From positions 1,408,059 to 1,472,058 of the forward strand of contig JAVKHP010000001.1 of NCBI GenBank assembly GCA_031459855.1: a DNA stretch of 64,000 nt, given 5' to 3'. Position numbers and translations under genes: made by a program. Every line of letters begins with the position of its first letter. The first letter of the stretch is position 1. Shown here in pieces: positions 21,696-48,748 of this stretch. The notes below the pieces were generated by a model. That model searched no databases, was not told where the DNA came from, and saw only the letters and a program-made list of their open reading frames with translations. The DNA comes from Armatimonadota bacterium. Lineage in GTDB: Bacteria; Sysuimicrobiota; Sysuimicrobiia; Sysuimicrobiales; Humicultoraceae.

Positions 21696-21764
21696 TGTCA
21701 CCACGTCTGGCACCTCGGGCGCCCGGGCTGTCCGTTCCAGGGCGACACCGCCGACGCCCGCATG

Positions 21765-25890: not shown

Positions 25891-25894
25891 CGAC

Positions 25895-26776: not shown

Positions 26777-26856
26777 GCCGCCGCTGGCGCGACGCTGCCC
26801 CGGCGGCGCAGTGGCAGGCGTCCGACACGCCTCACCGCATCCTCACCCCACGCCGT

Positions 26857-26880
26857 AAAAAACCGCCCTGAGCGCGCGGT
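26857..26880 (-). terminator. Possible intrinsic terminator after livF (set 1)
   Basis: On the minus strand ACCGC, a short spacer and GCGGT are followed directly by six T residues, about 100 bases after the livF stop codon. The stem is short, so termination may be partial. It would separate the GntR/E1/E2/livJGF transcript from livH-livM. Confidence 0.45.
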
Positions 26881-26962
26881 GGCAGAACGCGTCGGTGCCC
26901 ACGCGCGGCGGCCGGGACAGCCGCCCGGATCCCTGCTCACCGTGCGGCGCACGAGGCGGCAG

Positions 26963-28430: not shown

Positions 28431-28444
28431 GGGGCCCCCGCACC

Positions 28445-32493: not shown

Positions 32494-33519
32494 TCAGCGC
32501 GTGCCGCAGAGTTCCCGCGCCACGGCCGCGACCCGCTCGGCCGTCGGCACGGTCAGGTCCTCCAGCACCGGCGAGAACGGCACCGGCACGTGCATGGCGC
32601 CGAGCCGCCGCACCGGCGCGTCGAGGTCGTAGAAGGCGCCCTCGGCGATCACCGCGGCGAGCTCCCCGGTGACCCCGTACTTCTCGTAGCCCTCGTCCAC
32701 CACGATGACGCGGCCGGTCTTGCGGGCCGACGCCACCAGGGTCTCCACGTCCAGGGGCACGGTGGTCCGCGGGTCCACCACCTCGGCCTCGATCCCCTCG
32801 CCGGCCAGCAGCTCGGCGGCGGCCAGTGCCACGTGCACCATGCTGCTGGTGGCCACGATGGTCACGTCGCGCCCCGCGCGTTTCACGTCGGCGACGCCCA
32901 GGGGGATCACGTAGTCGTCCGCCGGCACCGGCCCCTTGAGCTGGTAGGTCATCTTGTCCTCGAAGACGATCACCGGGTTGTCGTCGCGGATGGCGGCTTT
33001 CAGCAGGCCCTTGGCGTCGTAGGGCGTGGAGGGCAGGGCCACCTTCAGGCCGGGGACGTGGCAGAGCCAGGCGTGCAGGCTCTGGCTGTGCTGGGCGGCC
33101 GAGCGGCGCGTGGCGCCCAGCGTCGTGCGGACGACCATGGGGACCCTGAGCTTGCCGCCCGACATGTAGTGGACCTTGGCGGCCTGGTTGACGATCTGGT
33201 CCATGGCCAGCGTGATGAAGTCGCCGAACATGATGTCCACCACGGGCCGCATGCCGGTCATGGCGGCGCCGACGGCGATGCCCGTGAATCCCGCCTCGGA
33301 GATGGGCGTGTCGATGACGCGGTCGCGGCCGAACTCCTCGACCAGGCCCGTCAGCACCTTGAAGGGGTGGCCCGCTTCGGCCACGTCCTCGCCGATGATG
33401 AACACCCGCGGGTCGCGGCGCATCTCCTCGGCCAACGCCTCGCGCACCGCCTGCGCGAAGGTGAGCTCCCGGACCTCCGGGGCAGTGGCGGGCTGGACCT
33501 GCGCGCTAGGCATAGACAT
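32494..33519 (-). CDS. Dehydrogenase complex E1 component, beta subunit
   Basis: A 341-residue thiamine-diphosphate enzyme subunit of the transketolase family: FAQAVREALAEEMRRDP, the GEDVAEAGHPFKVLTGL segment, DTPISEAGFTGIAVGAAMTG, and the C-terminal VIVDEGYEKYGVTGELAA. With E1-alpha it decarboxylates a 2-oxo acid (or cleaves an acetoin-like diketone) and acylates the E2 lipoate. ATGs at 33519 and 33513 both overlap the end of E1-alpha, so the subunits are coupled in translation. Confidence 0.93.
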   Translation of the reverse strand: MSMPSAQVQPATAPEVRELTFAQAVREALAEEMRRDPRVFIIGEDVAEAGHPFKVLTGLVEEFGRDRVIDTPISEAGFTGIAVGAAMTGMRPVVDIMFGDFITLAMDQIVNQAAKVHYMSGGKLRVPMVVRTTLGATRRSAAQHSQSLHAWLCHVPGLKVALPSTPYDAKGLLKAAIRDDNPVIVFEDKMTYQLKGPVPADDYVIPLGVADVKRAGRDVTIVATSSMVHVALAAAELLAGEGIEAEVVDPRTTVPLDVETLVASARKTGRVIVVDEGYEKYGVTGELAAVIAEGAFYDLDAPVRRLGAMHVPVPFSPVLEDLTVPTAERVAAVARELCGTR

Positions 33520-34507
33520 GCTGGTCCACCTCGCTCGCGTCGGGATAGGGGGCGTCCAGCGCGAAGGCCAGGCCACGGGCGATCTCCTCCCGCACCTTGG
33601 CGTCGAGCTGCGCCAGCAGGGCGGCGTCGGCGATGCCGTGGGCCGTCATCCACCGGGCCAGCAGCGTCAGCGGGTCACGCTCGGTCATCCACCACTGTTC
33701 CTCCTCGCGCGTGCGGTAGGCCCGGTTGACGTCGCCCACGTGGTGACCGCGGTACCGGTAGGTGTGGCAGAGCAGGAACGACGGCCCCTCGCCGGCCCGC
33801 GCCCGCGCCACCGCCGCGCGCGCCGCGCGCAGCACGGCGCGGACGTCCTGGCCGTCCACCTCCGTGCAGGGAATCCCAAACGCTTCGGGCCGCGCCGTCA
33901 TGGAGCCGGCGGTCGTCTCGCTGGCCGGCGTGTACTCGTTGTAGAGGTTGTTCTCGCACACGTAGACGACCGGCAGGCGCCACAGCGATGCCATGTTCAT
34001 CGCCTCGTAGAGCAGGCCCTGGCCCAGCGCGCCCTCCCCGAAGAAGCACACCGCCACCTGGTCCGTCCCGCGCATCCTGGCCGACAGTGCCGCGCCGGCG
34101 GCGATGCCGGCCGAGCCCCCCACGATGGCGTTGGCGCCCAGGTTGCCCACCTCGGGGTCGGCGATGTGCATCGACCCGCCCTTGCCTCGACAGTAGCCCG
34201 CGGCCTTCCCCAGCAGCTCGGCGAACATGCGGTCCACCGATGCGCCCTTGGCCAGGCAGTGGCCGTGGCCGCGGTGGGTGCTGGTGATGTAGTCGTCGCG
34301 CCGCAGCGCGGCGCACACCCCCACGGCCACCGCCTCCTCGCCGATGTAGAGGTGGGCGAGTCCGGGCATGCGGGCGCTGGTGTACAGCTCGTTGACCTGT
34401 TCTTCGAACCGCCGGATGGTCAGCATCTGCCGGTACAGGGCCCGCCACTGCTCGGGCCGGACGTCGGCCAGCTCGTCGCGGGGCGAGATCTCGGTCGCTC
34501 GCGTCAT
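33506..34507 (-). CDS. Dehydrogenase complex E1 component, alpha subunit
   Basis: A 333-residue thiamine-diphosphate-binding subunit. The cofactor motif is GEGALGQGLLYEAMNMA ... CENNLYNEYTP, with family blocks HLYIGEEAVAVGVCAALRRD, TSTHRGHGHCLAKG and CRGKGGSMHIADPEVGNLGA. The last resembles acetoin and pyruvate dehydrogenase alpha chains; the true substrate cannot be told apart by eye. Its ATG overlaps the preceding dehydrogenase gene by four bases (ATGA). Confidence 0.93.
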   Translation of the reverse strand: MTRATEISPRDELADVRPEQWRALYRQMLTIRRFEEQVNELYTSARMPGLAHLYIGEEAVAVGVCAALRRDDYITSTHRGHGHCLAKGASVDRMFAELLGKAAGYCRGKGGSMHIADPEVGNLGANAIVGGSAGIAAGAALSARMRGTDQVAVCFFGEGALGQGLLYEAMNMASLWRLPVVYVCENNLYNEYTPASETTAGSMTARPEAFGIPCTEVDGQDVRAVLRAARAAVARARAGEGPSFLLCHTYRYRGHHVGDVNRAYRTREEEQWWMTERDPLTLLARWMTAHGIADAALLAQLDAKVREEIARGLAFALDAPYPDASEVDQHVYA

Positions 34508-35391
34508 GGGTGCCCTCCCCCACCGGCCATGTCGGCCAGCACGTTGAACAGCGCCGCGAAGTCGCGATGGCCGTAGCCCATGGCGCGTGCCGCGCTCAGG
34601 AACTCGTTGGTCAGGGCGGTGGTGGGCAGCGGCACGCCCGCCTGGCGGCCCAGCTCCAGCGCCAGCAGCAGGTCCTTCTGCATCATGCGGCAGTCGAACC
34701 AGGCCTCCGGCGGCGGGGCCAGCACCAGCGGGCCCCGGTAGACCAGCATCGGCGAGGCGGCGACGCTGCGCAGCAGCACCTCCACGGCCGTCGCGCGCGG
34801 GATCCCGTTCTTCTCGGCCAGCAGCACGCCCTCTGAGAACGCCAGCATCTGCACGGCTAGGCTCAGGTTGGTGGCGATCTTCATGGTGACGGCCAGCCCC
34901 TGGGCGCCCACGTAGGTCACCGTCGGCCCGATCGCTTCCAGGACCGGCCGCACCCGCTCCAGGACCTCGCGGTCCCCGCCCACCATGATGGAGAGCCGGC
35001 CTTCCTCCAGCGTGGTCACGCTGCCCGAGACCGGGGCGTCGAGCATGTGCGCCCCGCGCGCCGCGACCTCGGCGGCCAGGGCCCGGCTCTCCGCGGGGCT
35101 CACGGTGCTCATGTCGATGTACACCGTGCCGGGGCGCAGGCCCGCCAGGATGCCGTCGGGCCCGCGGGTCACCGCGCGCAGGGCGTCGGTGTCCGCCATC
35201 ATGGTGATGACCACGTCGGCCGCCTCGGCCACCGCCCGCGGCGAGTCGGCCCAGCGCATGCCCAGGTCCACCAGCCACTGCGCCTTGGCCCGGGTGCGGT
35301 TGTAGCCGACCACCGGGTACCCGGCGTCCAGCAGCCGCTTGGCCATGCGGCTGCCCATCACGCCCAGTCCGACGAACCCGACCTGCGTCAT
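34504..35391 (-). CDS. 3-hydroxyisobutyrate dehydrogenase family NAD(P) oxidoreductase
   Basis: A 295-residue beta-hydroxyacid dehydrogenase: nucleotide-binding VGFVGLGVMGSRMAKRLLDA, substrate-binding DAPVSGSVTTLEEGRLSIM, and the catalytic Lys in GAQGLAVTMKIATNLS. The family oxidises 3-hydroxyisobutyrate, tartronate semialdehyde or similar C3-C4 hydroxy acids. It overlaps its neighbours on both sides by four bases, so it is firmly within the GntR-E1-E2 operon and could supply or drain the oxo acid for the complex. Confidence 0.9.
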   Translation of the reverse strand: MTQVGFVGLGVMGSRMAKRLLDAGYPVVGYNRTRAKAQWLVDLGMRWADSPRAVAEAADVVITMMADTDALRAVTRGPDGILAGLRPGTVYIDMSTVSPAESRALAAEVAARGAHMLDAPVSGSVTTLEEGRLSIMVGGDREVLERVRPVLEAIGPTVTYVGAQGLAVTMKIATNLSLAVQMLAFSEGVLLAEKNGIPRATAVEVLLRSVAASPMLVYRGPLVLAPPPEAWFDCRMMQKDLLLALELGRQAGVPLPTTALTNEFLSAARAMGYGHRDFAALFNVLADMAGGGGHP

Positions 35392-36110
35392 GCCTCACCC
35401 TGCCCCAGCAACACGCTGCGGATGTCCCGCTCGACCCGGCCCAGGTGCTCGCGCATCCGACGGCGGGCGGCCTCCGCGTCGCCGGCGCTGATCGCCGCCA
35501 CGATCTGCCGGTGCTGCTGGATCGACCGCTGCGGGCTGCCGGGAATGTGGTAGACCTGCGCCAGCGCCCGGTGCAGGGTGTCGCGGATCGCGTGCATCAT
35601 GCGAAGCGCCAGGCGGTTGCGGGTGGCCGTGGCCACGGCCAGGTGGAACCGCAGGTCGGCGCCGATGTACTGGTCCTGGGCGCCCAGCCCGGCCTCCATG
35701 TCGGCGATGGCGGCCGCCATCTGCCGGAGGTCGTCGTCGCTCCGGCGCAGCGCGGCCAGCCCCGCCGCTTCCACCTCGAGGATCTTGCGGACCTCGTAGA
35801 CCTCCAGCAGGGTAGCCTCCTCGAGCTCGAGGAGGAGGTGGAGGGAGTGGCGCAGCGGGTTGCCGTAGTCGGCCACCTGGAACGTACCGTTGGCCGACGC
35901 CCGGATGAGGCCGCGCGACTCCAGCATGCGCAGGGCCTCGCGCACCGAGGAGCGCCCGACCCGGTACCGCTGCATCAGCTCGCGCTCGGTGGGCAGCGGG
36001 TCGCCCGGGCGCAGCCCGCGGTCGCCGATCAGCTCCTCCAGCCGCTCGGCCACCAGCTCGTAGACCTTGCGGCGTTCGATGGGCGCGGTCGCGATGTCGA
36101 TGTGTGGCAA
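35388..36110 (-). CDS. GntR family transcriptional regulator (FadR/FCD subfamily)
   Basis: About 240 residues. An N-terminal winged helix (LRPGDPLPTERELMQRYRVG, SVREALRMLESRGLI) is followed by an all-helical FCD ligand domain with the Asp/His metal-type residues in ADLRFHLAVATATRN and the C-terminal QQHRQIVAAISAGDAEAARR. A TTG start at 36110 is preferred because AGGAGG lies seven bases upstream; an in-frame start at 36152 would place the reading frame across the operator. It is the first gene of the long operon and ends in a four-base overlap. It probably represses its own operon through the double GTCnGAC site just upstream and releases on binding a small acid. Confidence 0.88.
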   Translation of the reverse strand: MPHIDIATAPIERRKVYELVAERLEELIGDRGLRPGDPLPTERELMQRYRVGRSSVREALRMLESRGLIRASANGTFQVADYGNPLRHSLHLLLELEEATLLEVYEVRKILEVEAAGLAALRRSDDDLRQMAAAIADMEAGLGAQDQYIGADLRFHLAVATATRNRLALRMMHAIRDTLHRALAQVYHIPGSPQRSIQQHRQIVAAISAGDAEAARRRMREHLGRVERDIRSVLLGQGEA

Positions 36111-36127
36111 GCTGCTACCTCCTGGAT

Positions 36128-36150
36128 GTCGGACCAGCTGATCGTCTGAC
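36128..36150. promoter_or_regulatory. Candidate FadR-type double operator at the GntR operon
   Basis: GTCGGAC (36128-36134) and GTCTGAC (36144-36150) are each palindromic GTCnGAC boxes, exactly nine bases apart, ending 18 bases before the GntR start codon and overlapping the leader. The first extends to GTCGGACCAG, which matches the TGGTCnGACCA-type core known for FadR-like regulators. The same arrangement, 18 of 23 bases identical, recurs at 44876-44898. Confidence 0.6.
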
Positions 36151-36207
36151 ACGAGCCCTCAGGAGACTTCCCTCCGCACCTGGCGTCTTCCTCCGACACG
36201 GGCGGCT

Positions 36208-36285
36208 GCGGCACGTCCCGACCGGCGGGCGCTGCGCTCGCCGCGCAGCGCCGCGAATGCCGCTGGCGGCACGTCCCCACCGGCG
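36208..36285. repeat. Operon-boundary spacer: 58-bp-offset repeat and 10-bp stem
   Basis: A 20-base word at 36208-36227 recurs at 36266-36285 with one mismatch. Between them GGCGCTGCGC-TCGCC-GCGCAGCGCC (36228-36252) forms a perfect 10-bp hairpin. It lies about 140 bases after the DUF6282 gene and may mark the end of that operon, although no T-run follows. Confidence 0.55.
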
Positions 36286-36394
36286 CTGCCGACATCTGCC
36301 CGCCTGCGCTACTCGATGCCGCGCCTCCGGGTTCGCCTCGTGCAGAACCTCTTCCCACGTGCGCGTGCCGCTCGTTGCCGCGCCCCCCACGGGT

Positions 36395-37408
36395 TCACCC
36401 CGCGAGCAACTGGGCCGGGTTGCGCCGGCCCATCAGGTCCAGCTCCCGGTCGGTGATGCCGTGCGCCCGCAGCTCCCGCACGAAGGCCAGGAAGCCCTCT
36501 GCCGGCGTCAGGCACGGAGAAGCGCCCAGGTCGCTGGCCAGGATGCAGCGCTCGGCGCCCACGGCTTTGATCGCGGCCGCCATCTGCGCGACGGACACCC
36601 CGCGCCACCCGCGGAAGCGTTCCACGGGCGACTGCGGGCCGAGGAACACGCCGATGTACGCGTGCTCGATGTAGGCGCCCAGCCGGGCCGCCTCGCGCTG
36701 GTCCTCGATGCTCATGTTGATGGGATCGTAGTCGGCGTGGGTGCAGACGATCCGCTCGACGCCCGCCGCCCGGGCTTCCCGGATCAGCGCGAGCGCCTCG
36801 GGCGCGGAGAGGTGGCTGGTCTGCAGCACCAGCCCGTGGGCGGCGCACAGCGCCAGGATCTCCCGCATGGCTGGCACGAGCCGGGTACCGTCGAACACGT
36901 CGACGCCGGGCTGCGCGATGCCGAACCGCTCGTGGTGGTTGCGGGCGTTGATGCTGGGCAACCACACCACCCGTCCCAGCCGCTCCGCGCCGGCGCCACG
37001 GAACGCCAGCATCGCCTCGACGGCCGCAGGGTTGATGCCGCCCATGGGCCAGTTGAGGACCACCCCGCCGAACACCTGGAGCCCGTCCACCGCGGCCCGA
37101 GCCTGCGCCGCCCGGGTCACGGTCTCGAACGCGCCGCCCTTGAGCACGATCGCGCGCATGCCCAGCGCCCGGGCCGCGCGCGCGGCCTCCACCGCGTCCA
37201 CGGTGCGGTCGAAGTTGTCGGGCGCGGTGTGCACGTGGAAGTCGATCATCCCTTCGGTCTCGTCCCGCACCGCCTGCAGGCGCTCGGCCTGCTCCTCGGC
37301 CGCGGGCGCCGCGTGGAGGACAGGCGCCGCGGAAGCCGGGGCGCACCCCAGCGCCCGGGCGCGCGCAACGTGCGCAACAGGAACGCAGGCTGCAGCACCC
37401 CAGCACAT
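36395..37408 (-). CDS. DUF6282/amidohydrolase-like protein
   Basis: A 337-residue protein of the metal-dependent hydrolase fold. IDFHVHTAPDNFDRTVDAVE gives the HxH metal pair; further candidates are the His in QTSHLSAPE, the His in VCTHADYD and the Asp in ILASDLGASPC. It resembles the DUF6282 group of unknown function. The first ~50 residues are Ala-rich and poorly conserved-looking, so translation may start later, at VRDETEG or MIDFHVH. It is the last gene of the second liv operon, 11 bases after RidA. Confidence 0.72.
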   Translation of the reverse strand: MCWGAAACVPVAHVARARALGCAPASAAPVLHAAPAAEEQAERLQAVRDETEGMIDFHVHTAPDNFDRTVDAVEAARAARALGMRAIVLKGGAFETVTRAAQARAAVDGLQVFGGVVLNWPMGGINPAAVEAMLAFRGAGAERLGRVVWLPSINARNHHERFGIAQPGVDVFDGTRLVPAMREILALCAAHGLVLQTSHLSAPEALALIREARAAGVERIVCTHADYDPINMSIEDQREAARLGAYIEHAYIGVFLGPQSPVERFRGWRGVSVAQMAAAIKAVGAERCILASDLGASPCLTPAEGFLAFVRELRAHGITDRELDLMGRRNPAQLLAG

Positions 37409-37419
37409 CGCCAGCCGCC

Positions 37420-37896
37420 TCAGGCCGTCCCGTCGGGCCCTGCGGTCGCGACCCGCGCCGCGACGTCCGCCGGCGCCACGGCCAGCGCCTCGATCTCGAC
37501 GCGCGCGTCCGGCACCACCAGGGCCGCCACCTGCACCGTGGTGCTGGCCACCTGGTGGTCGCCCAAAACTTCGCGCTGGACCGCGTTGAGCTCGTCCTGC
37601 TCGCGCATGTCGGTGAGGTAGCGCGTCACCTTCACCACGTGCCGCCAGGTCAACCCCAGGGCGTCCAGGGAGAGCTGGATGTTCTGGAAGACCCGCCGGG
37701 CCTGGTCGCGCATGGCCGGCGGCAGCACGTGCTCCTCCGGTACGTGCGGGTGGTGGTGGTACACGGGCGAGGCGTGGCACCCCGAGATCAGGACCAGCGC
37801 CGCCCCGGGCGGGACCACCACCGCGGGCGCGTAGGGCATCGTCACCTTGCCCCGCAGCGGATGGGGCGGGAACACGGGGATGCCGTACTCGGGCAC
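37420..37896 (-). CDS. RidA family protein (enamine/imine deaminase-like)
   Basis: A 158-residue YjgF/YER057c/UK114-fold protein: AALVLISGCHASPVYH near the start, QNIQLSLDALGLTWRHVVKV, and the C-terminal TTVQVAALVVPDARVEIEALAV. RidA proteins hydrolyse reactive imines formed by PLP or amino-acid-oxidising enzymes; this one carries a His-rich insertion (YHHHPHVPEEH), which is unusual. The start lies one base after the livF stop codon, so it is part of the importer operon. Confidence 0.85.
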   Translation of the reverse strand: MPEYGIPVFPPHPLRGKVTMPYAPAVVVPPGAALVLISGCHASPVYHHHPHVPEEHVLPPAMRDQARRVFQNIQLSLDALGLTWRHVVKVTRYLTDMREQDELNAVQREVLGDHQVASTTVQVAALVVPDARVEIEALAVAPADVAARVATAGPDGTA

Positions 37897-37897
37897 G

Positions 37898-38605
37898 TCA
37901 ACTCACCCCCAGGTAGGCTTCCTGGACCTGCCGGTCGCGCAACAGCTCCTCGCGCGTGCCCTGGACGACGATGCGGCCACGGTCCATGACCGCCGCGCGG
38001 TCGGCCGCCGCCAGGGCCCGGATCGCGTTCTGCTCGACGAGGAGCACCGACGTGCCCAGGCGTCGGACGTCCTCCACGAACCCGAACACGACGTCGGCCA
38101 TCACCGGCGCCAGCCCCAGCGACGGTTCGTCCATCAGCAGCAGCTTCGGGCGGCTCATGAGCGCCCTGCCGATGGCGAGCATCTGCTGTTCGCCGCCGCT
38201 GAGGGTGCCTGCCCGCTGGCCCAGGCGCTCGCGCAGCCGCGGGAACAGCGCCAGGACCTGGTCCAGCGTCTCGCGCGCCCGACCGCGCGCCCGCCGGGCG
38301 AACGCACCCAGTTCCAGGTTCTCCCGCACCGTCAGGTCCGCGAACACCCTGCGTCCCTCGGGGACCACGGCGATGCCGCGCTCGCACACCTGTTCCGGCG
38401 GCAACCCCGTGATGGGCTCGTCCAGGAACTCCACGACCCCCCGCCAGGGCCGCACCCACCCCGCGATGCTCTTCACCAGCGTGCTCTTGCCCACGCCGTT
38501 GGGCCCCAGGACGGCCACCACCTCGCCGTCGCCCACGGTCAGGCTCACCCCGTCCAGAGCGCGGGCCTCGCCGTAGCGCACGTCCAGGTCGCGGACCTTA
38601 AGCAT
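37898..38605 (-). CDS. livF: Branched-chain amino acid type ABC transporter ATP-binding protein LivF (set 2)
   Basis: A 235-residue LivF-type ATPase: Walker A GPNGVGKSTLVK, RGIAVVPEGRRVFADLTVRE, signature LSGGEQQMLAIGRA, Walker B LLLMDEPSLGLAP, and VEQNAIRAL. It overlaps livG by eight bases. Confidence 0.92.
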   Translation of the reverse strand: MLKVRDLDVRYGEARALDGVSLTVGDGEVVAVLGPNGVGKSTLVKSIAGWVRPWRGVVEFLDEPITGLPPEQVCERGIAVVPEGRRVFADLTVRENLELGAFARRARGRARETLDQVLALFPRLRERLGQRAGTLSGGEQQMLAIGRALMSRPKLLLMDEPSLGLAPVMADVVFGFVEDVRRLGTSVLLVEQNAIRALAAADRAAVMDRGRIVVQGTREELLRDRQVQEAYLGVS

Positions 38606-39341
38606 GGCCGCCGTGGCTTCCCAGGTACGCCGCGCGCACGCGTTCGTCGCGCAGCACGTCTTCGGGGGCGCCTTCCGCGAGCACCGTGCCCTCGTGCAAC
38701 ACCACGATCCGGTCGGCCAGCGTCCGCACCGCCTTCACGTTGTGCTCGACCACCAGGAGGGCGACGCCCATGGCCCGGATGGTGCGGATCGCATCCAGCA
38801 CCCGCTCGATCTCGGCAGGCGTCAACCCCGCCAGCACCTCGTCGGCGAGGATGATCCGCGGGTGGCTCGCGAGCGCCCGGGCGAGCTCCAACAGGCGGCG
38901 TTCCTGCAGCGTCAGGCGGTGCACGGGATGCGGGGCCGCACGGTCCATGCCCAGCAGGTGCAGCCACCGCTGCGCTGCGCCCTGTGCGTCCGCCGGTGCC
39001 CTGCCGCCGTCGCCCGCGCCGAACAGCGCTCCCACCGCCACGTTGTCCTGGGCGCTCATCGAGCCGAACGGCCGGGGGTGCTGGTACGTGCGGGCCAGCC
39101 CCATGGCGGCCCGGCGGTGCGGGGCCAGGCCGGTGATGTCGACGCCGCGGAACAGCAACGTCCCCGCATCAGCGCGGTAGTACCCTGCGGTCACGTTGAT
39201 CAGCGTCGACTTCCCCGACCCGTTGGGGCCGATGAGCCCGACGGTCTCGCCCTCGCCGACCGCCAGCGACACACCCCGCAGCGCGCGCACGCCGCCGAAG
39301 TTCTTGCGCACGTCGCGCACCTGCAACAGCGGGTCAGCCAC
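38598..39341 (-). CDS. livG: Branched-chain amino acid type ABC transporter ATP-binding protein LivG (set 2)
   Basis: A 247-residue LivG-type ATPase with Walker A GPNGSGKSTLIN, LARTYQHPRPFGSMSAQDN and Walker B IILADEVLAGLTP. The ABC signature reads LTLQERRLLELARA instead of LSGGQ, a variant I associate with one LivG subfamily rather than damage. It overlaps livM by eight bases. Confidence 0.9.
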   Translation of the reverse strand: MADPLLQVRDVRKNFGGVRALRGVSLAVGEGETVGLIGPNGSGKSTLINVTAGYYRADAGTLLFRGVDITGLAPHRRAAMGLARTYQHPRPFGSMSAQDNVAVGALFGAGDGGRAPADAQGAAQRWLHLLGMDRAAPHPVHRLTLQERRLLELARALASHPRIILADEVLAGLTPAEIERVLDAIRTIRAMGVALLVVEHNVKAVRTLADRIVVLHEGTVLAEGAPEDVLRDERVRAAYLGSHGGHA

Positions 39342-40461
39342 CGGTGACCTCCACCCCTCGCTGTCGCCTGGCCGGCCAGCGGCCGCCGCTCAGCCGTGCC
39401 GGGGCCACCAGCACCACCATGAAGGCGCCCACGCCGAGGGCCACCGCGTCCAGCAGCCCGGTCCCCGCGGCGGCGGCCATCCCCAGGGCCGCCAGCCCCA
39501 CCGCCCCCGCCACGGCCCCGCGCTCGCGCAGCCGGCCGTAGATGCCCTCGGGCAGCGCGGCCACCACCACCATGAGCAGCAGGCCCATGAGCACCTCGCT
39601 CACCGTGCCCAGGCCCGGACCGCTGAGGCGGTCGTTGATCGCGTGCACCACGCCCGCGCCCAGCACCGGTCCCAGCCAGTGCCGCCGGCCGCCCAGCACG
39701 CACATCATGATCACCAGCAGCGGCACGCGCAGGGAGAACACCGCGTCGGCCGTCACGTAGCGGACCTGGAGCGCGTGCAGCCCGCCGCTCAGGCCGGCGA
39801 CGGCGCCGCTCAGCACCAGGGCCGCCATCTTGTAGGCGAACGTCGGCACGCCCAGGCCTTCCGCGACCGGCTCGTCGTCGTGGATCGCCCGCAGTCCCCA
39901 ACCGTGTCGGCTGCGATAGGTCCACCATCCGATCCCCACGGCTACCAGGCCCACGAGCAGCCCGGCGTAGTACAGGAACTGCACGTCCGCCAGGCCAAAC
40001 GGATAGACGAGCTTGGGCAACGGAATCCCGCGTCCGCCGTCCAGGTAGCCCACGTTGTTCACCAGGCTGTGCAGTGCCACCGCGACCGCCAGGGTCACCA
40101 GGGCGAACACGGGCCCGCGGATCTGCCGCAGGCGGAACACCACCAGGCCGATCCCGCAGGCGACGGCTGCGCTCGCCGCGGCGCCCGCCAGGATCGCCAG
40201 ACCGTAGGGCACCCCGTGCCGGTCGATCAACACCGCCGCCCCGTACACGCCCGCGCCGTAGAAGGCGCCCTGGCCGAAGCTGAAGTAGCCGGCGTATCCG
40301 GAGATCACGTTCCAGCTGGTGGCCTGCGCCGCCCAGAAGAAGAAGAAGTACAGGAAGACCAGGTAGTAGGCCGGCAGGCCCAGGCGGTGGACCGCGACGG
40401 GCACGGCCAGCAGCGCCGCCACGGCAGCACCCATCGCCCAGCCCGCCCGTGACCGCCTCAT
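39334..40461 (-). CDS. livM: Branched-chain amino acid type ABC transporter permease LivM (set 2)
   Basis: A 375-residue permease: NVISGYAGYFSFGQGAFYGA, RQIRGPVFALVTLAVAVA, and the loop RHGWGLRAIHDDEPVAEGLG. After the usual LivM end there are two extra hydrophobic segments (AVGLAALGMAAAAGTGLL and DAVALGVGAFMVVLVA) that lengthen it beyond typical LivM. Its ATG overlaps the livH stop codon by four bases. Confidence 0.9.
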   Translation of the reverse strand: MRRSRAGWAMGAAVAALLAVPVAVHRLGLPAYYLVFLYFFFFWAAQATSWNVISGYAGYFSFGQGAFYGAGVYGAAVLIDRHGVPYGLAILAGAAASAAVACGIGLVVFRLRQIRGPVFALVTLAVAVALHSLVNNVGYLDGGRGIPLPKLVYPFGLADVQFLYYAGLLVGLVAVGIGWWTYRSRHGWGLRAIHDDEPVAEGLGVPTFAYKMAALVLSGAVAGLSGGLHALQVRYVTADAVFSLRVPLLVIMMCVLGGRRHWLGPVLGAGVVHAINDRLSGPGLGTVSEVLMGLLLMVVVAALPEGIYGRLRERGAVAGAVGLAALGMAAAAGTGLLDAVALGVGAFMVVLVAPARLSGGRWPARRQRGVEVTGG

Positions 40462-41336
40462 CCGTCCCGCCGCACCAGCGCGCTGGGGAGCAGGCCTTCC
40501 GGGCGCACCAGCAGGCCTGCCAGCAACGCGCAGGCGCCGACCAGCCGTGCGACCGCGGTGGCGCCCAGCGCCTGCGCGATGGCCTCGCCCACGCCGATGA
40601 CCATCCCGCCCAGGACGACACCCGCGGGGTTGCCGATGCCCCCGAGGATGACCGCGGCGAACAGCAGGCCGATCCACTGCTCGGCCGCGTTGGGGTAGAG
40701 CGCGTGGTTCATCGCGATCAGCACCCCGGCGACCCCGGCGGTAGCGCCCCCGAGCGCCGCCATCAGCAGGCGCAGCCGCTCCACGTCGGCGCCGCACGCC
40801 CGCGCCATCTCCTCGTCGGACACCGCGGCCCGCAGCGCCCTGCCCGGGTACGTGGCCCGCAGCCACACGGCCACGGCCACGGCGACGAGCATCGCCACGG
40901 TGAACGACAGCACCTGGGTGATCGGCAGCGCCAGCTCGCCCAGAGCGAGCGCGCCGGCGGCGTAGGGGTTCTGGGCCACGGGGATGCGGCGGTAGTCGGC
41001 CGTCCACACCATCTTGGAGAGGCCCTCGAAGACCACCAGGACCCCGAACGTGAAGACCAGCGAGCGGGCCGCGTCCAGGCGCAGGCGGCGCATCAGGAAG
41101 CGCCAGCCGGCACCCGCGGCAGCGCCCAGCGGCGCCACCACCAGCAGCACCGCCAGCGGGTCCATCCCGCGGGTCGCGAGCTCGTAGGTGACGTACCCGA
41201 ACCCGAAGATGAACGCGAAGTGCGCGAAGTCGATGGTGTCGAGGAACCCCCAGGCCAGCGTGAGGCCCAGCGCCAGGAGGGCGTAGAACCCGCCCATCAG
41301 GATCCCCGACGCGCCGGCCTGCACCAGTTCGAGCAT
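40458..41336 (-). CDS. livH: Branched-chain amino acid type ABC transporter permease LivH (set 2)
   Basis: A 292-residue permease with ILMGGFYALLALGLTLAWGF, DTIDFAHFAFIFGFGYVTY and the coupling loop TYPGRALRAAVSDEEMARAC. It begins 180 bases after livJ, beyond a strong hairpin that may reduce transcription into the membrane genes. Confidence 0.91.
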   Translation of the reverse strand: MLELVQAGASGILMGGFYALLALGLTLAWGFLDTIDFAHFAFIFGFGYVTYELATRGMDPLAVLLVVAPLGAAAGAGWRFLMRRLRLDAARSLVFTFGVLVVFEGLSKMVWTADYRRIPVAQNPYAAGALALGELALPITQVLSFTVAMLVAVAVAVWLRATYPGRALRAAVSDEEMARACGADVERLRLLMAALGGATAGVAGVLIAMNHALYPNAAEQWIGLLFAAVILGGIGNPAGVVLGGMVIGVGEAIAQALGATAVARLVGACALLAGLLVRPEGLLPSALVRRDG

Positions 41337-41386
41337 GGGACGTGCCCTCAGCCGGCCGGGTGCGTCACCCGCACGGGACGCCTGCG

Positions 41387-41422
41387 GGGGCCGCGCGGGC
41401 GGTTCCCCGCCCGCGCGGCCCC
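41387..41422 (-). terminator. Perfect 16-bp stem-loop between livJ and livH (set 2)
   Basis: A perfect 16-bp inverted repeat with loop TTCC (41403-41406) lies 95 bases after the livJ stop codon. The arms are all G/C. No T-run follows, so it may act as a partial terminator or as a 3' stabiliser that keeps binding-protein mRNA more abundant than permease mRNA. Confidence 0.65.
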
Positions 41423-41430
41423 GTGCTCTT

Positions 41431-41532
41431 GCCGCAGCGCGCGGCGGTCACCGGGGCTGCCGGTACGACGGCGGCCACGACGGACACGGTGACCTCCCTG
41501 CCGCAGCGCGCGGCCCTCACCGCAGCTGCCGG
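41431..41532. repeat. Duplicated livJ 3' tail, offset 69
   Basis: The last bases of livJ including the stop region (41500-41532) recur at 41431-41463 with about 28 of 33 bases identical. The extra copy lies outside the gene and encodes nothing recognisable. Confidence 0.65.
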
Positions 41533-42755
41533 CCTTCCGCGGCCATCGACTGCGGCCAGACCGCCCACCACCGGCCGTCCTGGATCTGCATCACGGCCTG
41601 GATGTCGTCGCCGTAGTTCTGCTGCTGCCGGTCGAACCGCAGCATGCCCTGGACCGTGGGCACGGGCTTGGAGAGCAGCACCTCGGCGATCGTCGCGTGG
41701 TCCAGGCAGCGGCACTCCTGTACCCCGAAGGTCAGGACCTGCCAGGCCGACCACGAGGCCGCGGACTGCACGTCGGGTTCGCTGTAGGCCAGCCCGGTGG
41801 CCTTGGCCCACGCGCGGTAGCGGTTGACGAAGTCCCGCGCCCCCGGGTACGAGAGGTAGGGCTCGTGGGGCACGAAGATCGTCACGCTGGTGGCGCGGTC
41901 GGTGAGTGGCAGCGCCGCCAGCATCGCGCCCGGCGACGGCCACTGGTGGAAGTGGTGTCGGGGCCGCCAGCCCAGCTGGGCCAGGGCCTGGAGCAGGTTC
42001 ACGCCGTCCAGTGCCAACCCGGCGACGTAGAGGAGGTCGGGGTTGGCGCGCCGCACCTGCTGGGCGATCGGCACCCAGTCGGTGGTGCCGAGGTCGAACG
42101 AGAGGTCCAGCACCGTCCGCAGCCCCTTCTGCTCGGCGACGCGCACCGCCCCGCCGGCGTTCTGCCGCCCGTACGCCAGGAACTGGGTGCCGGGGAACTT
42201 GTTCACCACGAAGCCGACGGTCTGCGGCCGTCGGCTACCCGGCAGGCTGCGGTAGGCGTCGAACACCTTGGCCGGGGTCGTCATGTGGGTATTGAGGCCC
42301 ACGTACCACGTCGGGAAGTGCCGCCGGTAGGTGTAGGCGTAGGTCAGGCTCGCGGTGTGGTGGGGGAACACGTAGCCGTACTTCTCGGCCACCCGCATCG
42401 CCGCCGTGATGGATGCGGTGCCGTACGGCCCGATGATCAGGTCGACCTTGTCCTCGGTGATGAGGCGCTCGTAGAGGGCCGCGGCCTTGTCGGGCTGCGA
42501 CTCGTCGTCGAGCAGCACCCACTCCAGCTGTCGGCCGAGCAGGCCGCCCTTCTCGTTGGTCATCTGCACGAAGGCCCGGCCTGCGGCCTCGTGCACCTTG
42601 CCCTGTGCGGCGAACACCCCGGTGAGGGGCAGCGTCCCGCCGACCCTGATCGGCCGGGGCTGGGCACTGGTCTGCGCCTGCAGCACCACCAGCGCCAGCA
42701 CGACGCCCAGGGCGGCCCACGGTCCGACTGCCTTGCTCGCGTGCCTGACGTGCAT
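41517..42755 (-). CDS. livJ: Branched-chain amino acid type ABC transporter substrate-binding protein LivJ (set 2)
   Basis: A 412-residue exported binding protein: signal peptide GPWAALGVVLALVVLQAQTS, then VGGTLPLTGVFAAQGKVHEA, TNEKGGLLGRQLEWVLLDDE, LIIGPYGTASITAAMRVAEK and TDWVPIAQQVRRANPDLLYV. GGAGGGGG lies nine bases before the ATG at 42755. The cupin gene upstream and the permeases downstream place it in the second liv operon. Confidence 0.91.
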   Translation of the reverse strand: MHVRHASKAVGPWAALGVVLALVVLQAQTSAQPRPIRVGGTLPLTGVFAAQGKVHEAAGRAFVQMTNEKGGLLGRQLEWVLLDDESQPDKAAALYERLITEDKVDLIIGPYGTASITAAMRVAEKYGYVFPHHTASLTYAYTYRRHFPTWYVGLNTHMTTPAKVFDAYRSLPGSRRPQTVGFVVNKFPGTQFLAYGRQNAGGAVRVAEQKGLRTVLDLSFDLGTTDWVPIAQQVRRANPDLLYVAGLALDGVNLLQALAQLGWRPRHHFHQWPSPGAMLAALPLTDRATSVTIFVPHEPYLSYPGARDFVNRYRAWAKATGLAYSEPDVQSAASWSAWQVLTFGVQECRCLDHATIAEVLLSKPVPTVQGMLRFDRQQQNYGDDIQAVMQIQDGRWWAVWPQSMAAEGRQLR

Positions 42756-42808
42756 GGTCACGCACCCCCTCCTGCAGTCTGTACTGCGGTGTGGCCTGTC
42801 GTCGGTGC

Positions 42809-43732
42809 TCACGTCCCTGCCGTGGCCGATGGCGCCGCCAGCAGCTGCTCCAGGTAGTCCCACTCCCGGTTGAAGCGGTACGAGTGGTTCCGCGGCGGCT
42901 GCGGCGCCTGTGTCTCGATCCACCGGACTTTGCGGTTCGACCGGTTGTAGAAGGCGTGGATCGTCCCCACGCCGGTCCAGAAGAAGTCGCCCGCTCGCAG
43001 CCGGTAGGTCTGCCCGTCGGCCACGGCGTCCACTTCCCCGTCGACGATCAGGTAGGCCTCCTCCAGCGGGTGGTCGTGCGGGTGCGCCACGCCCCCGGGC
43101 TCGTACTCGACCATGAACATCGTCAGCAGGTTGGCGTCCTGCCGCTGGTCCACCAGCATCTTGATCCCGATGCCGCTGTAGACGAGCAGCGCCGTCACCA
43201 TGCTGGGCGAGACCGTGGGAGCGTCCACCCGGCTCCCCCGGCGGGCGCTGTCCAGGTCCATCTGCCCCAGCTCGAAGTGGAAGAAGGACCGGCAGCGCGG
43301 GTCGCGGGCGTCCACGCGTCGGGGGGCGCCGGCCGTGCGCGGGGGCGGTGCAAAGAAGACATCGGCCGGCTCCCCGGGCTGTCGGGGACGCGGCGCCACC
43401 ATCTCCACCCACGTGCACGGCTGCGCGCCGGGGTTGCGCAGGGCGTGGAGGGCGCCGACCGGAATCAGCCCGCCCTCGTCCTTGCCCAGGCGCACGGTCT
43501 CGCCGTGCAGCGTCAGCTCGAGCTCACCCTCGAGCACGTAGATGGCCTCCTCGTACGATTGGACGTGGGCGGCGACGTGCCCGCCGCCGTCCAGTTCGCA
43601 CGCGGCAAACCCCATGTGCACGGACCCGGTCGTCCCGTCCACCAGCGACTGCCGGCGAAAGCCCGTGCTGTGCGCCGCGAAGCGCTCCGGCACGGTCATC
43701 TGCGTGCGGTCGATCCGTGTCACGCGATGCAT
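42809..43732 (-). CDS. Bicupin protein
   Basis: A 307-residue protein with two cupin barrels. The first has GGHVAAHVQSYEEAIYVLEG, the second PGGVAHPHDHPLEEAYLIVDG with the full His/His/Glu metal set, followed by FFWTGVGTIHAFYN carrying the last His. The layout resembles ureidoglycine aminohydrolase and other two-domain cupins that act on small nitrogenous or keto compounds. It lies 53 bases upstream of livJ and is probably co-transcribed. The substrate is not known. Confidence 0.83.
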   Translation of the reverse strand: MHRVTRIDRTQMTVPERFAAHSTGFRRQSLVDGTTGSVHMGFAACELDGGGHVAAHVQSYEEAIYVLEGELELTLHGETVRLGKDEGGLIPVGALHALRNPGAQPCTWVEMVAPRPRQPGEPADVFFAPPPRTAGAPRRVDARDPRCRSFFHFELGQMDLDSARRGSRVDAPTVSPSMVTALLVYSGIGIKMLVDQRQDANLLTMFMVEYEPGGVAHPHDHPLEEAYLIVDGEVDAVADGQTYRLRAGDFFWTGVGTIHAFYNRSNRKVRWIETQAPQPPRNHSYRFNREWDYLEQLLAAPSATAGT

Positions 43733-43903
43733 CCCGCCGTCGACCCTCCTCGTGCTCCGACGTGACGCCGGCGCGCCCGGCGCCAGCTCCTGATCACCCG
43801 TGAGCGCCCGTCCCTGTCGGCCCCCGCCGCGGCTGCCCGGACCGCTGGCGGTTATACCTCCGCCCTCGTCCGCCGTCGTCCGCCGGGGTCGACCACCGGG
43901 CCC

Positions 43904-44605
43904 CTAGCCGAAGACCCAGCCCCCGTCCACGTAGAGCTCGACCCCGTTGACCGCCGGGTTCTCCAGCAGGAACGCCACCGCGTCGACCACGTCCTGCATG
44001 CGCACCAGGCGGCCCGTGGGCGTCCGGGCCTTGACCCGGTCGAGCATGGCCTGGTTGTTGGCCCAGTAGGGACTATCGCCCACGATCCCGGGGTGGATGG
44101 CGTTCACCCGCACCGGCGCCAGCTCGGTGGCCAGGGTCCGCACCAGGCCCGACACGCCCGCATTGATCGTCGTGACGGTGGTCGAGCCCGGATAGGGACG
44201 TTCCTTCGCCAGACCGCCGAAGATGACGATGGCGCCATCGGTCGCGAGGCGGCTGTGGAGCGCATGGACGACGGCGGTGTAGCCCACCAGTTTGAGGGTC
44301 ACGAGGTTCAGAGCCCCCGCGACGTCGTACTCGCGCACGCTGTTCCGGTCGCGGTCGATCGCCGCCAGCACCAGGCCGCTCACGGGGCCCACGTCGGCGA
44401 GGCGGCCCGCCACCTCGTGGGGGCGGGTGAGGTCGACGCCGACGCCGCGGACGGTGCTGCCCAGTTCGCGGGCGACCGCGCCCGCGCGGTCAGCGTCACG
44501 CCCCGAGATGATTACCGCGCGGCCCTGCCCCGCGTAGTGCCTGGCCACCTCCTTGCCGATGCCCGAAGTGCCGCCGATGACGACCACCGCGCCCGCCCGA
44601 TCCAT
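43904..44605 (-). CDS. Short-chain dehydrogenase/reductase family protein lacking the YxxxK motif
   Basis: A 233-residue Rossmann protein: cofactor motif VVVIGGTSGIGKEVARHYAG, then ISGRDADRAG, DLTRPHEVAG, a helix with NLVTLKLVG, and the C-terminal LENPAVNGVELYVDGGW. Aligned by the conserved RTLA helix, the catalytic Tyr and Lys positions are Val and Asn (VTTINAGVSGLVRTLA), so ordinary SDR chemistry is doubtful. It is the first gene of the second liv operon. A GAGGAGGG ribosome-binding site precedes the ATG, and this leader is duplicated upstream. Confidence 0.84.
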   Translation of the reverse strand: MDRAGAVVVIGGTSGIGKEVARHYAGQGRAVIISGRDADRAGAVARELGSTVRGVGVDLTRPHEVAGRLADVGPVSGLVLAAIDRDRNSVREYDVAGALNLVTLKLVGYTAVVHALHSRLATDGAIVIFGGLAKERPYPGSTTVTTINAGVSGLVRTLATELAPVRVNAIHPGIVGDSPYWANNQAMLDRVKARTPTGRLVRMQDVVDAVAFLLENPAVNGVELYVDGGWVFG

Positions 44606-44609
44606 GCCT

Positions 44610-44704
44610 GCCCTCCTCTATGCGTAGCGCCTCGATGTGCGGCCGCGCGTCTTCGCTCTCCGCGACGGCCCGCCCTCCTCTATGCTGCAGCGCGTCGATG
44701 TGCG
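44610..44704. repeat. Duplicated ribosome-binding leader of the SDR gene
   Basis: The 32 bases just upstream of the SDR start, including the GAGGAGGGC site, recur 62 bases further upstream with a few differences. The extra copy has no ATG in position and appears non-functional. Confidence 0.65.
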
Positions 44705-44875
44705 CAGGTCCTCGGCAGGGCACAGGTCCCTGGCAGTGTCCCGCAGGGTGTGCTGTGCCCCGCACGGCCTGTTGCCCGCGCCCGCGCGTCGTTCCACGGC
44801 CGGACGTTCGGTCCGTGGCCACGCGGACCGCCCGCTCTTTCCCCGGCCGCCCTGACCAATCCGCGCCACGGGTCT

Positions 44876-44898
44876 GTCAGACCAGCAGACGGTCCGAC
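44876..44898. promoter_or_regulatory. Candidate FadR-type double operator upstream of the SDR/liv operon
   Basis: GTCAGAC (44876-44882) and GTCCGAC (44892-44898) are separated by exactly nine bases, like the pair at 36128-36150, in the same orientation on the plus strand. The left box extends to GTCAGACCAG and is flanked by a GGTCTG...CAGACC palindrome. It lies 271 bases upstream of the SDR start and 40 bases past the amidohydrolase stop codon. Confidence 0.58.
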
Positions 44899-44937: not shown

Positions 44938-46284
44938 TCAGATCTGCGGCAGCTGGAACCCCGAGGCGGCCACCACGTGGTCGCGGGAGGCGTAGGCCAG
45001 CCGCCGCAGGCGGTCCAGGTCCACCCCCAGCAGCTGGCCGTTGCGCTTGAGCGGGCGCCCGGCCACGAAGACCGAGTCCACGTTGCCGGTATCCATCCCC
45101 CAGACCACCGCGCCGATCGGGTCGTTGACGGGGAAGACGTTGGGGCGGTCCATGCGGAGCATGATGATGTCGGCGTCCTTGCCCGGCGTCAGCGTGCCGA
45201 TCCGGTCGGCCAGGCCGTTGGCGCGCGCGCCCTCCACGGTGGCGTACTCCAGCACGTCGCGCGTGGTGATCGGCGCGGGTGCGGCCTCGTTGCCGGCCAG
45301 TCGCTGCTCGAACACCAGGGCGTGCTGCAGGGCGATCGTGGCGCGCATCTGGGTGAACATGTCGTTGGGCACGTTGGTTTCGACGTCCACGCTCAGGCTG
45401 GGCCGCAGGCCCCGGTCCAGGAACCGCTGGATCGGCGGCATGCCGTGCCCCATCATCATCTCCACGGGGCAGGCCAGCGACACGGTGGCGCCCGAGTCCA
45501 CGATCAGCTGGACCTCGGCGTCCTGCAGCGTGCAACAGTGGATGAAGGTGGTGTCCGGCCCGTACAGCCCTGTCTGGCCCACCGCGCCCACCTTGCCGTG
45601 GCGGCCGAACGTGCCGACGCCCACGTGGGCGGTGATGCGCGCGTCGAGCTCGCGGGCGAGCTGCCAGTCCGCCCGGCAGCCCTCCAGGGAGTCGAACTCG
45701 GGGCCGAAGACCGCCAGGGCCAGGGTCAACAGCTGGTCCTTGGACGCGAAGTACTGCGCCGCCGCCCGGCGAATCCACGTGGGGTGCTCCGGCTTGGGCG
45801 CTTCGAACCAGGGACGGCCGTAGGCGAAGACGGCGCGGATGCCCGACTCCCGCAGCGCGCTGACCGCCGCGTCGGTATGGTCCGGGGTGGTCTGGATGTG
45901 CGACCAGTCCAGGACCGTGGTGATGCCGGCGTCGATGCAGCCGATGGCGCTGACCAGGGTGCCGGCGTAGACGTCCTCGGGGCGGTAGGCGGGCGCCAGG
46001 GTGTTCAGGACGAAGGCCAGGTAGCTGACCGGGCCCTCCAGCGGCACGTCGGTGCCGATGTTGCGCAGGATGCCCTCCCAGCAGTGGCGGTGGGTGTCGA
46101 TGAAGCCCGGCATGACGACCATCTGGGAGGCGTCGATCACCTCGGCGTCTGCGACCGCAAGGTGGGGCCCCACGGCGGCGATGCGCGAGCCCTCGATGAG
46201 CACGTCCCCCCGCGGGAAGTTGCCGATCTGCCGGTCGAGCGTGAGCACACACCCGCCCTGCAAGAGCGTGCGGCGCGCTGTCAT
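44938..46284 (-). CDS. TrzA/AtzA-type amidohydrolase (cytosine deaminase-like)
   Basis: A 448-residue amidohydrolase: a small beta-domain start (LLQGGCVLTLDRQIGNFPRG), the metal pair in GFIDTHRHCWEG, His in RITAHVGVG, His in TTFIHCCTL and Asp in LSVDVETNVPND, then the closing GTLTPGKDADIIMLR segment. The family deaminates or dechlorinates N-heterocycles and related compounds; the substrate is open. GGGGGAG precedes the ATG. It lies 71 bases after the TctC-type binding-protein gene. Confidence 0.88.
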   Translation of the reverse strand: MTARRTLLQGGCVLTLDRQIGNFPRGDVLIEGSRIAAVGPHLAVADAEVIDASQMVVMPGFIDTHRHCWEGILRNIGTDVPLEGPVSYLAFVLNTLAPAYRPEDVYAGTLVSAIGCIDAGITTVLDWSHIQTTPDHTDAAVSALRESGIRAVFAYGRPWFEAPKPEHPTWIRRAAAQYFASKDQLLTLALAVFGPEFDSLEGCRADWQLARELDARITAHVGVGTFGRHGKVGAVGQTGLYGPDTTFIHCCTLQDAEVQLIVDSGATVSLACPVEMMMGHGMPPIQRFLDRGLRPSLSVDVETNVPNDMFTQMRATIALQHALVFEQRLAGNEAAPAPITTRDVLEYATVEGARANGLADRIGTLTPGKDADIIMLRMDRPNVFPVNDPIGAVVWGMDTGNVDSVFVAGRPLKRNGQLLGVDLDRLRRLAYASRDHVVAASGFQLPQI

Positions 46285-46355
46285 CGTTGCTCCCCCCTTG
46301 GCGGATACTGGCGCCCGGCCCCGCCTCGACCCGCTCGCGCGGCGCCCCGGGCGCG

Positions 46356-47459
46356 TCAGATCACCTGTCCGTACTTCTCGCGCATCAGGTCCCTGATGAA
46401 CTTCGACACGTCGAGGGTCACCCGCAGGGCCCGGTGGACCTGGGCCTCGACGCGGTCGCCGCGGTAGAGGGGGTAACCTTCCATGAGCTTGCGGGCCTGG
46501 TCCTGGAACTCGCGGTCGGCGTTCATGCGGTCGATGCCCTCCCACAGGGTGCGCAGCGCCTCGGGCGGGGTGCCCTCGGGGGCCCAGATGCCGCGGCCGT
46601 AGGTCCAGGAGGCGGCCACGAGGGCGCGGAAGGCCTTCCAGCGCAGGAGGCCGTCGGGCTTTTTCTGGAAGAGCTGCTGGTAGACCTCGTAGACGGTGGG
46701 CAGGTCGGGCACGGCCGGATCGCGGACCATCTCGCCCTTCTCGTTGATGAAGCCCAGCGTCATGAGCCCCACGGCCTTGCCCTCGCGCACCAGGGGCAGC
46801 ACCTGCGAGGCGTAGACGAACGACGCCTGGAAGTCCAGCGAGAGCTCGCCCCGCTCGAAGGCCAGGCGGATGGGGCCGCGGGACTCGAAGCCGAAGACCA
46901 CCTTGGGGGCGATCCCCAGCAGCTCGAAAGCCAGGAGTGCCGGCAGCTCGACCCCGGGTGGGGTGTTGCTGCCGAAGACCAGGCCCGTGGCCTTGGGCAG
47001 GTCGGCGGCGGTGCGCACGCCGGCCCGCGGCGACGCGTAGATCACCGCCCCGGAGCCGTTGATCGACACCAGGCGCCAGCGTGTGAAGTCGTAGCGCACG
47101 GCGGGGTTGCCGAGCATGTAGGCCACCTTGGACGCCACCGTGCTCGCCAGCAGCATGGAGCCATCGGGCTTGGCGTTGGCGGCGAACCAGTTCATCCCCA
47201 GCAGCGTCCCGCCCCCGGGCATGTTGCGGATGCGCACGGTGGGATTCCCGGGGATGTGCTTCTCGAGGTAGGGGGCCAGGAAGCGGTTGAGGATATCGGT
47301 GGCGCCGCCCACGGCCGTGGGCACTACCAGGTCGATCGTCTTGCCGGCGTAGAACGGCGCCTGCGCGCCGCCCGGCGTGCTCGCGCACAGGGCGAGCGCC
47401 AGGACGGCGATCAGCCAGGCGGTGTGTCGTACCCTCCGGCGTGCCGCGGGGTTCGCCAC
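46356..47459 (-). CDS. TctC/Bug family substrate-binding protein, copy 1
   Basis: About 367 residues: signal peptide TAWLIAVLALALCASTPGG followed by YAGKTIDLVVPTAVGGATDI, GNPTVRIRNMPGGGTLLGMN and, at the C-terminus, REKYGQVI. These proteins capture carboxylates or related solutes for TctAB carriers. The GTG at 47459 is preferred because AGGAGG lies eight bases upstream. Residues from about 175 onward are almost identical at DNA level to copy 2, while the middle differs. No TctA/TctB genes adjoin; the fused carrier at 9.0-10.9 kb is the only one in the window. Confidence 0.88.
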   Translation of the reverse strand: MANPAARRRVRHTAWLIAVLALALCASTPGGAQAPFYAGKTIDLVVPTAVGGATDILNRFLAPYLEKHIPGNPTVRIRNMPGGGTLLGMNWFAANAKPDGSMLLASTVASKVAYMLGNPAVRYDFTRWRLVSINGSGAVIYASPRAGVRTAADLPKATGLVFGSNTPPGVELPALLAFELLGIAPKVVFGFESRGPIRLAFERGELSLDFQASFVYASQVLPLVREGKAVGLMTLGFINEKGEMVRDPAVPDLPTVYEVYQQLFQKKPDGLLRWKAFRALVAASWTYGRGIWAPEGTPPEALRTLWEGIDRMNADREFQDQARKLMEGYPLYRGDRVEAQVHRALRVTLDVSKFIRDLMREKYGQVI

Positions 47460-48537
47460 AGCGTCCACCTCCTCGTATGTCTCGCCCCTCCCAACGCCGC
47501 CCGCGCCGTGCGCGGTGCCGGGTGCGCTGCAGACGGCGCCCCCGGCGTCAGTCCGGAAGGGGCGGCCTCAGATCGTCTGGCCGTACTTCTCCCGCAACAG
47601 ATCGCGTACGTACCTGGTCACGTCCAGCGTCACCCGCAGGGCCCGGTGGACCTGAGCCTCGACGCGGTCGCCGCGGTAGAGGGGGTAACCTTCCATGAGC
47701 TTGCGGGCTTGGTCCTGGAACTCACGGTCGGCGTTCATGCGGTCGATGCCCTCCCACAGGGTGCGCAGCGCCTCGGGCGGGGTGCCCTCGGGGGCCCAGA
47801 TGCCGCGGCCGTAGGTCCAGGAGGCGGCCACGAGGGCGCGGAAGGCCTTCCAGCGCAGGAGGCCGTCGGGCTTTTTCTGGAAGAGCTGCTGGTAGACCTC
47901 GTAGACGGTGGGCAGGTCGGGCACGGCCGGGTCGCGGACCATCTCGCCCTTCTCGTTGATGAAGCCCAGCGTCATGAGCCCCACGGCCTTGCCCTCGCGC
48001 ACCAGGGGCAGCACCTGCGAGGCGTAGACGAACGACGCCTGGAAGTCCAGCGAGAGCTCGCCCCGCTCGAAGGCCAGGCGGATGGGGCCGCGGGACTCGA
48101 AGCCGAAGACCACCTTGGGGGCGATCCCCAGCAGCTCGAAAGCCAGGAGGGCTGGCACCGTGGCCCCGGGCGGCGAGTTGCTGCCGAAGGTCAGGTCGGT
48201 CGCCTTCGGGAGGTCGGCCGCCCGCCGCACCCCGGCCCGCGGCGCCGCATAGAAGACCCCGCCGCTGCCGTTGATGGCCACGAGCCGCATGCGCCGGAAG
48301 TCGTACCGCACCGCGGGGTTCTCCATCATGTACGCCACCTTGGACGACACGGTGCTGGCGAACAGCATGAGCCCGTCGGGTTTCGCGTTCGCCGCGAACC
48401 AGTTGCCGCCCAGGATGCTCCCGCCCCCGGGCATGTTGCGGATGCGCACGGTGGGATTCCCGGGGATGTGCTTCTCGAGGTAGGGGGCCAGGAACCGGTT
48501 GAGGATGTCGGTGGCGCCGCCCACGGCGCTGGGCACC
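46418..48537. repeat. Homogenised tracts shared by the two TctC-type genes
   Basis: At a constant offset of 1,212 bases, 46418-46936 matches 47630-48148 with only a handful of mismatches, and 47208-47325 matches 48420-48537 nearly as well. The ~270 bases between these tracts, and the signal-peptide ends, have diverged. The mosaic pattern indicates gene conversion between tandem copies rather than a single recent duplication. Confidence 0.8.
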
Positions 48538-48647: not shown

Positions 48648-48748
48648 GGTCGTGTCCTCCCGCGATCGTGTATATACTGGGCATGCTGGGTTGGCCCTGC
48701 CCCAGCAGGATCGAGACGGACCACAGGACAGCACCCGAGGGATGAGGG

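Follow-up and report, generated by a model that had tools for sequence, protein, structure and literature searches.

The question raised by this locus is whether one GntR-type regulator controls two sets of transport and enzyme genes through a shared operator. An earlier note on the analyzed stretch of 64,000 bases (hereafter the window) had described two intergenic sites, each with a pair of palindromic GTCnGAC boxes nine bases apart, and had proposed that the nearby GntR protein co-regulates both gene sets. The proposal has gained strong comparative support, because it agrees with a matrix trained by leaving out clades, with sites that track the leading gene of each transcription unit and with gene clusters that are merged in two related genomes. 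It was nevertheless incomplete, as the form of the sites, their extension and the position of the operons had to be corrected. In the corrected form we consider it highly probable that both sites serve as operators for the GntR protein encoded at 35388-36110, which would co-regulate both operons by binding cooperatively to an array.

Genes and predicted operators in the window

The genes of interest here extend from about 13 to 48 kb, all on the minus strand. Operon B (44605 to 36395) encodes an SDR oxidoreductase (43904-44605), a two-cupin protein (42809-43732), liv ABC importer B (37898-42857; livJ 41517-42857, livH 40458-41336, livM 39334-40461, livG 38598-39341 and livF 37898-38605), a RidA-like protein (37420-37896) and, as the final gene product, a DUF6282 protein (36395-37420). 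It is directly followed by gntR (35388-36110), which starts with a TTG codon (36110) preceded by the Shine-Dalgarno sequence AGGAGG, and whose product, composed of a GntR HTH and an FCD domain, is the predicted repressor of both units. The gntR gene leads operon A, in which it is followed by genes for a protein similar to 3-hydroxyisobutyrate dehydrogenase and tartronate-semialdehyde reductase (34504-35391; adjoining gntR in most relatives), for 2-oxoacid dehydrogenase E1 alpha (33506-34507) and E1 beta (32494-33576), for an M24 metallopeptidase-like protein of the creatinase/DddP/DoeA superfamily (31119-32465; under all specific cut-offs), for 2-oxoacid dehydrogenase E2 (29712-31109), for liv ABC importer A (24874-29662; livJ 28445-29662, livG 27711-28430, livF 26963-27727, livH 25895-26776 and livM 24874-26004) and for a zinc alcohol dehydrogenase-like protein (23813-24874), the family of which was judged from sequence alone. 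The same alcohol dehydrogenase gene follows livM in the genomes G018 and G021. The two operons had been called distant; they in fact adjoin on one strand, operon B ending at 36395 and gntR starting at 36110.

Farther downstream on the same strand are an EamA-type gene, an amidohydrolase gene, a TAXI-TRAP transporter (18627-21713; substrate-binding protein 20532-21713, fused permease 18627-20510) and an NMT1-ABC importer with M24 genes. The TAXI-TRAP genes of the window lack a site of their own, whereas in relatives the operator leads the TAXI-TRAP genes; those of the window are possibly transcribed by read-through from operon A. Upstream of the second site lies a gene for an amidohydrolase of the PRK08204 subfamily (44938-46350), which in G018 and G021 lies within the cluster of gntR. 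Directly upstream of it, on the same strand, two adjoining genes of strong coding composition (46356-48734; 370 and 388 amino acids) gave no Pfam or NCBIfam match. The regulon's transporters and enzymes probably serve one pathway. Profile models did not name its substrate, as DddP, DoeA and tartronate-semialdehyde reductase all scored under their cut-offs.

Both pairs of boxes are exact, lie where the earlier note had placed them and share 18 of 23 positions. The locations that it had given them, before gntR and before the SDR operon, also held, both being in the claimed promoter regions. The boxes do not form an independent pair, being units 1 and 3 of an array of three units with a phase of 8 bases, in which unit 2 is a central half-box. 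Predicted operator 1 (36127-36150, minus strand) reads GTCAGACG-ATCAGCTG-GTCCGACA and is located directly 5' of the gntR Shine-Dalgarno sequence, and predicted operator 2 (44875-44898, minus strand) reads GTCGGACC-GTCTGCTG-GTCTGACA and is located about 270 bases 5' of the SDR start codon (44605). In gene direction the consensus of the two is GTCnGACn-RTCnGnnn-GTCnGACA. A consensus sigma-70 promoter was found at neither site, nor was a terminator. In the leader of operon B (44605-44706) the ribosome-binding region is nearly duplicated, with CGCACATCGAnGCGCTnnGCATAGAGGAGGGC occurring twice about 65 bases apart and only the second copy having the SDR start codon after it.

The possibility that these elements represent a chance likeness of GTC/GAC-rich words in a genome of 72% G+C can be considered negligible. 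Single GTCnGAC boxes are indeed not enriched in the window (16 versus about 21 expected from base composition), which would fit chance, and which also implies that the arrangement is what matters. Against chance, the exact double box GTCnGAC-N9-GTCnGAC, which had been claimed to be unexpected from composition, was absent from all 100 dinucleotide-preserving shuffles of the 64-kb window. A search of the whole genome (3,186,079 bases) did not return many copies in coding regions but just two, both intergenic, 8.7 kb apart and identical to the two window sites. The exact word RTCNGNNNGTCNGACA likewise occurs twice in the genome, at these sites only. Moreover, the conservation in relatives described below already refutes chance. 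A recent duplication, in which one promoter was copied from the other, was ruled out: the 60-base flanks are unrelated (15 of 60 identical on each side), and the likeness of the two sites is thus confined to the element itself.

Conservation of the sites and gene clusters

The genomes of the phylum in the comparison set belong to one order (43 genomes). Clear gntR orthologs are present in 13 relatives, at 59-67% identity with the next best matches at 43% or less, and a fourteenth ortholog outside the window genome was found in L014, an environmental genome labelled Bacillota. The same dehydrogenase gene clusters with the ortholog in 13 of the 13 relatives, as do those for E1 and M24 in each case in which the examined stretch is long enough; in L014 the contig ends after gntR, so that it holds no downstream gene. 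In G018 and G021 the counterparts of operons A and B are merged into one cluster that contains gntR, the amidohydrolase, SDR and cupin genes, livJHMGF, the dehydrogenase gene and E1 alpha, with livJGFHM, the alcohol dehydrogenase gene and TRAP upstream. This merging alone would make joint control of both operons plausible. The liv, alcohol dehydrogenase and TRAP blocks are ordered differently in the two genomes (L086 and L088), as in a super-operon undergoing rearrangement.

A related site precedes the transcription unit of every gntR ortholog examined (13 relatives and L014), and its position follows the leading gene. Where gntR leads the unit, the site is found before gntR (G000, G007, G001, G020, G014 and L014), and where gntR is internal, it is found before the leading gene for the TRAP substrate-binding protein (G002, G009, G010, G024, G027, G030 and G033); in G018 and G021 sites are present before both TRAP and livJ. 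An NMT1-ABC-M24 unit of G014, homologous to window positions 13326-17357, bears the same array (L083, position 10496), and the predicted regulon of that genome takes in yet another importer.

The conservation that the earlier note had looked for thus applies to the phase and not to the exact double box. The latter was rejected as a marker, being no commoner than its control in most genomes, because the relatives keep the phase rather than the exact pair: they carry two to five units at the same 8-base phase, such as GTCTGACA-GTCAGACC-GTCGGAGA in G024 and five consecutive units in G010. When phases of 4 to 24 were scanned, 8 stood out, with 16 as its harmonic; the signal at phase 4 was inflated by overlap of the box with itself. 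A three-unit score of at least 14 out of 18 was reached by 14 of 19 leader promoters, which had been picked with the hit positions already known so that the scoring was not blind, versus 0 of 813 control segments (330 bases each, from the same loci). The weak promoters by this score were both G018 sites (11) and that of G020 (12). A 16-base matrix (RTCWGMTTGTCNGACA-like) was also trained on relatives with each clade left out, which holds for its weights and not for its register, as the sites had been aligned by eye from all promoters. Applied to the window, none of whose sequence had entered its training, the matrix ranked the two sites 1 and 2 among 127,970 positions. Of the 19 promoters, 17 had their site in first place, or in second place behind nothing but the sister site of the same cluster.

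The extension GTCnGACCAG, which had been proposed for the box, was not borne out, since the relatives keep GACA and GACCA is typical of paralogous regulators. In all genomes with the ortholog, the form GTCnGACA accompanies it and its neighbours. The mere presence of RTCWGNNKGTCNGACA anywhere in a genome was rejected as a test for the regulator, as 32 of 43 genomes have one. Because matches in coding sequence are common, genomes that have the ortholog cannot be told from those that lack it by the presence of the motif; in the latter, most of the matches examined were in coding-like frames.

Proposed control and competing readings

According to the reading that we favour, several GntR dimers would load side by side and cooperatively on the 8-base-phased array. 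Its occupancy at the promoter, or a short distance downstream of it, and over the transcription start would repress operon B together with gntR and operon A, the latter by autoregulation. Binding of a carboxylate to the FCD metal site would release the protein and thereby induce uptake by the two liv importers, and perhaps by the adjoining TRAP transporter through read-through, along with the E1/E2, dehydrogenase, SDR, cupin, RidA and M24 enzymes. In G003, where the sequence was read directly, the array is preceded by a good promoter, TTGACA-N17-CATAAT, a position that fits a repressor covering the transcription start. If correct, this provides a concrete and testable regulon in an apparently uncultured lineage, in which two operators place a chain of transporters and enzymes under one regulator.

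The alternative that deserves most attention, although we hold it to be unlikely, is cross-regulation, in which the sites are real FCD-GntR operators that belong to, or are shared with, another regulator of this family. The genome encodes seven FCD-GntR proteins, and the six others might bind the window sites too. Several paralogs in the order have similar 8-base-phased boxes, including one exact double box in G007. On the other hand, the paralog at 595 kb in the window genome is provided with a different array of its own (GTTGGACCATTGGACC), GTCnGACA is tied to the ortholog and the genes around it as described above, and the recognition helix, GRSSVREALR, hardly varies among 15 orthologs but differs in most paralogs. 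Still less probable is that only operator 1 is functional, in autoregulation, and that operator 2 is a chance likeness or a relic with operon B being controlled otherwise. Such a reading could draw on the distance of operator 2 from the SDR start codon and on its lack of an orthologous promoter in relatives, which arises because no genomes other than G000, G018 and G021 have the SDR and cupin genes, and in G018 and G021 these are internal. But operator 2 scores above operator 1 with the matrix of the relatives (19.1 versus 17.6), it is one of just two exact copies in 3.19 Mb, and its genes share a cluster with gntR in G018 and G021.

Relation to known FCD regulators and to the paralogs

The GntR protein matches PF00392 (66.6 bits) and PF07729 (113 bits), each above the cut-off, which assigns it to the FadR/FCD subfamily of the GntR superfamily. 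Its best solved relative is LldR of Corynebacterium glutamicum (PDB 2di3), with which the residues of the FCD metal site (Asp-x3-His, His and His) align and are all present, at a score of about 72 bits only and with a different regulon.

Palindromic GntR operators with weaker extra half-sites 7-12 bases away, as well as the direct repeats of NanR, have been noted before (Suvorova et al. 2015, PMC4494728). In line with the FadR-subfamily operators of that study, a palindromic GT-N3-AC core, here in the form of GTCnGAC units, is found upstream of gntR in the window and in the relatives where gntR leads. Autoregulation of gntR is predicted, and the extra box lies within the reported distance from the palindrome centre. 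In contrast to these operators, with their A/T-rich core and weaker single half-sites, the core of the window sites is G+C-rich, and in the orthologous promoters two to five units follow one another at exactly 8 bases. Three dimers of E. coli NanR bind the three repeats of a (GGTATA)3 operator, with a cooperativity that stems from a 32-residue N-terminal extension (Horne et al. 2021, PMC8012715). NanR is likewise an FCD regulator with three closely spaced repeats in its operator, and it is the best NCBIfam model for the window protein, which nevertheless scores well below the cut-off (147.3 versus 260 bits). Moreover, the NanR repeats are purely direct whereas the window units are palindromic, and the genes next to the window protein are those of E1/E2, M24, liv and TRAP instead of sialic acid genes. 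The N terminus is also shorter than that of NanR: residue 7 aligns with NanR residue 22, and most orthologs align only from residue 10-11. The window protein thus is not NanR, but by analogy may work in a similar way. Adjacent extra half-sites and the NanR repeats are already known, and the 8-base-phased array of palindromic units is a variation on them.

The same phase is found at paralogous FCD-GntR genes. In the upstream regions of 64 such paralogs in the order, 53 TGG/CCA pairs were counted at lag 8, compared with 8.6 in shuffles (at most 15), and 15 GGTC pairs, compared with 0.8 (at most 2). Because the paralogs are partly orthologous to one another, these are not independent counts. A control set of 31 FCD-GntR promoters, taken from other phyla, showed no increase at lag 8. 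The presence of the phase at the paralogs and its absence from this control suggest that FadR-type regulators more widely load their dimers side by side, a mode of binding that has been worked out so far for NanR. More specifically, the FCD-GntR proteins of this lineage as a group may read strictly 8-base-phased operators of two to five boxes, stacking dimers without the NanR extension, with the number of boxes setting the strength of control; we regard this wider proposal as slightly less probable than its opposite. If true, stacking on successive helix faces would be a general multi-dimer mode of FadR-type repression.

Several further features of the paralog promoters can be mentioned. Direct repeats of CnGACCA-type half-sites at an 8-base phase were seen in L151, L062, L064, L075 (for example GTCAGACCAGCAGACCACCAGGCC), L157, L182, L185 and others, and some of the arrays are close to the start codon. 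TGG/CCA pairs at lag 12 are likewise raised (31 versus 9.3 expected). The exact GTCnGAC-N9-GTCnGAC of G007 (L089, position 9708) has the sequence TTGACA-N17-GATTGT upstream of it and is followed by a paralogous FCD-GntR gene with 35% identity.
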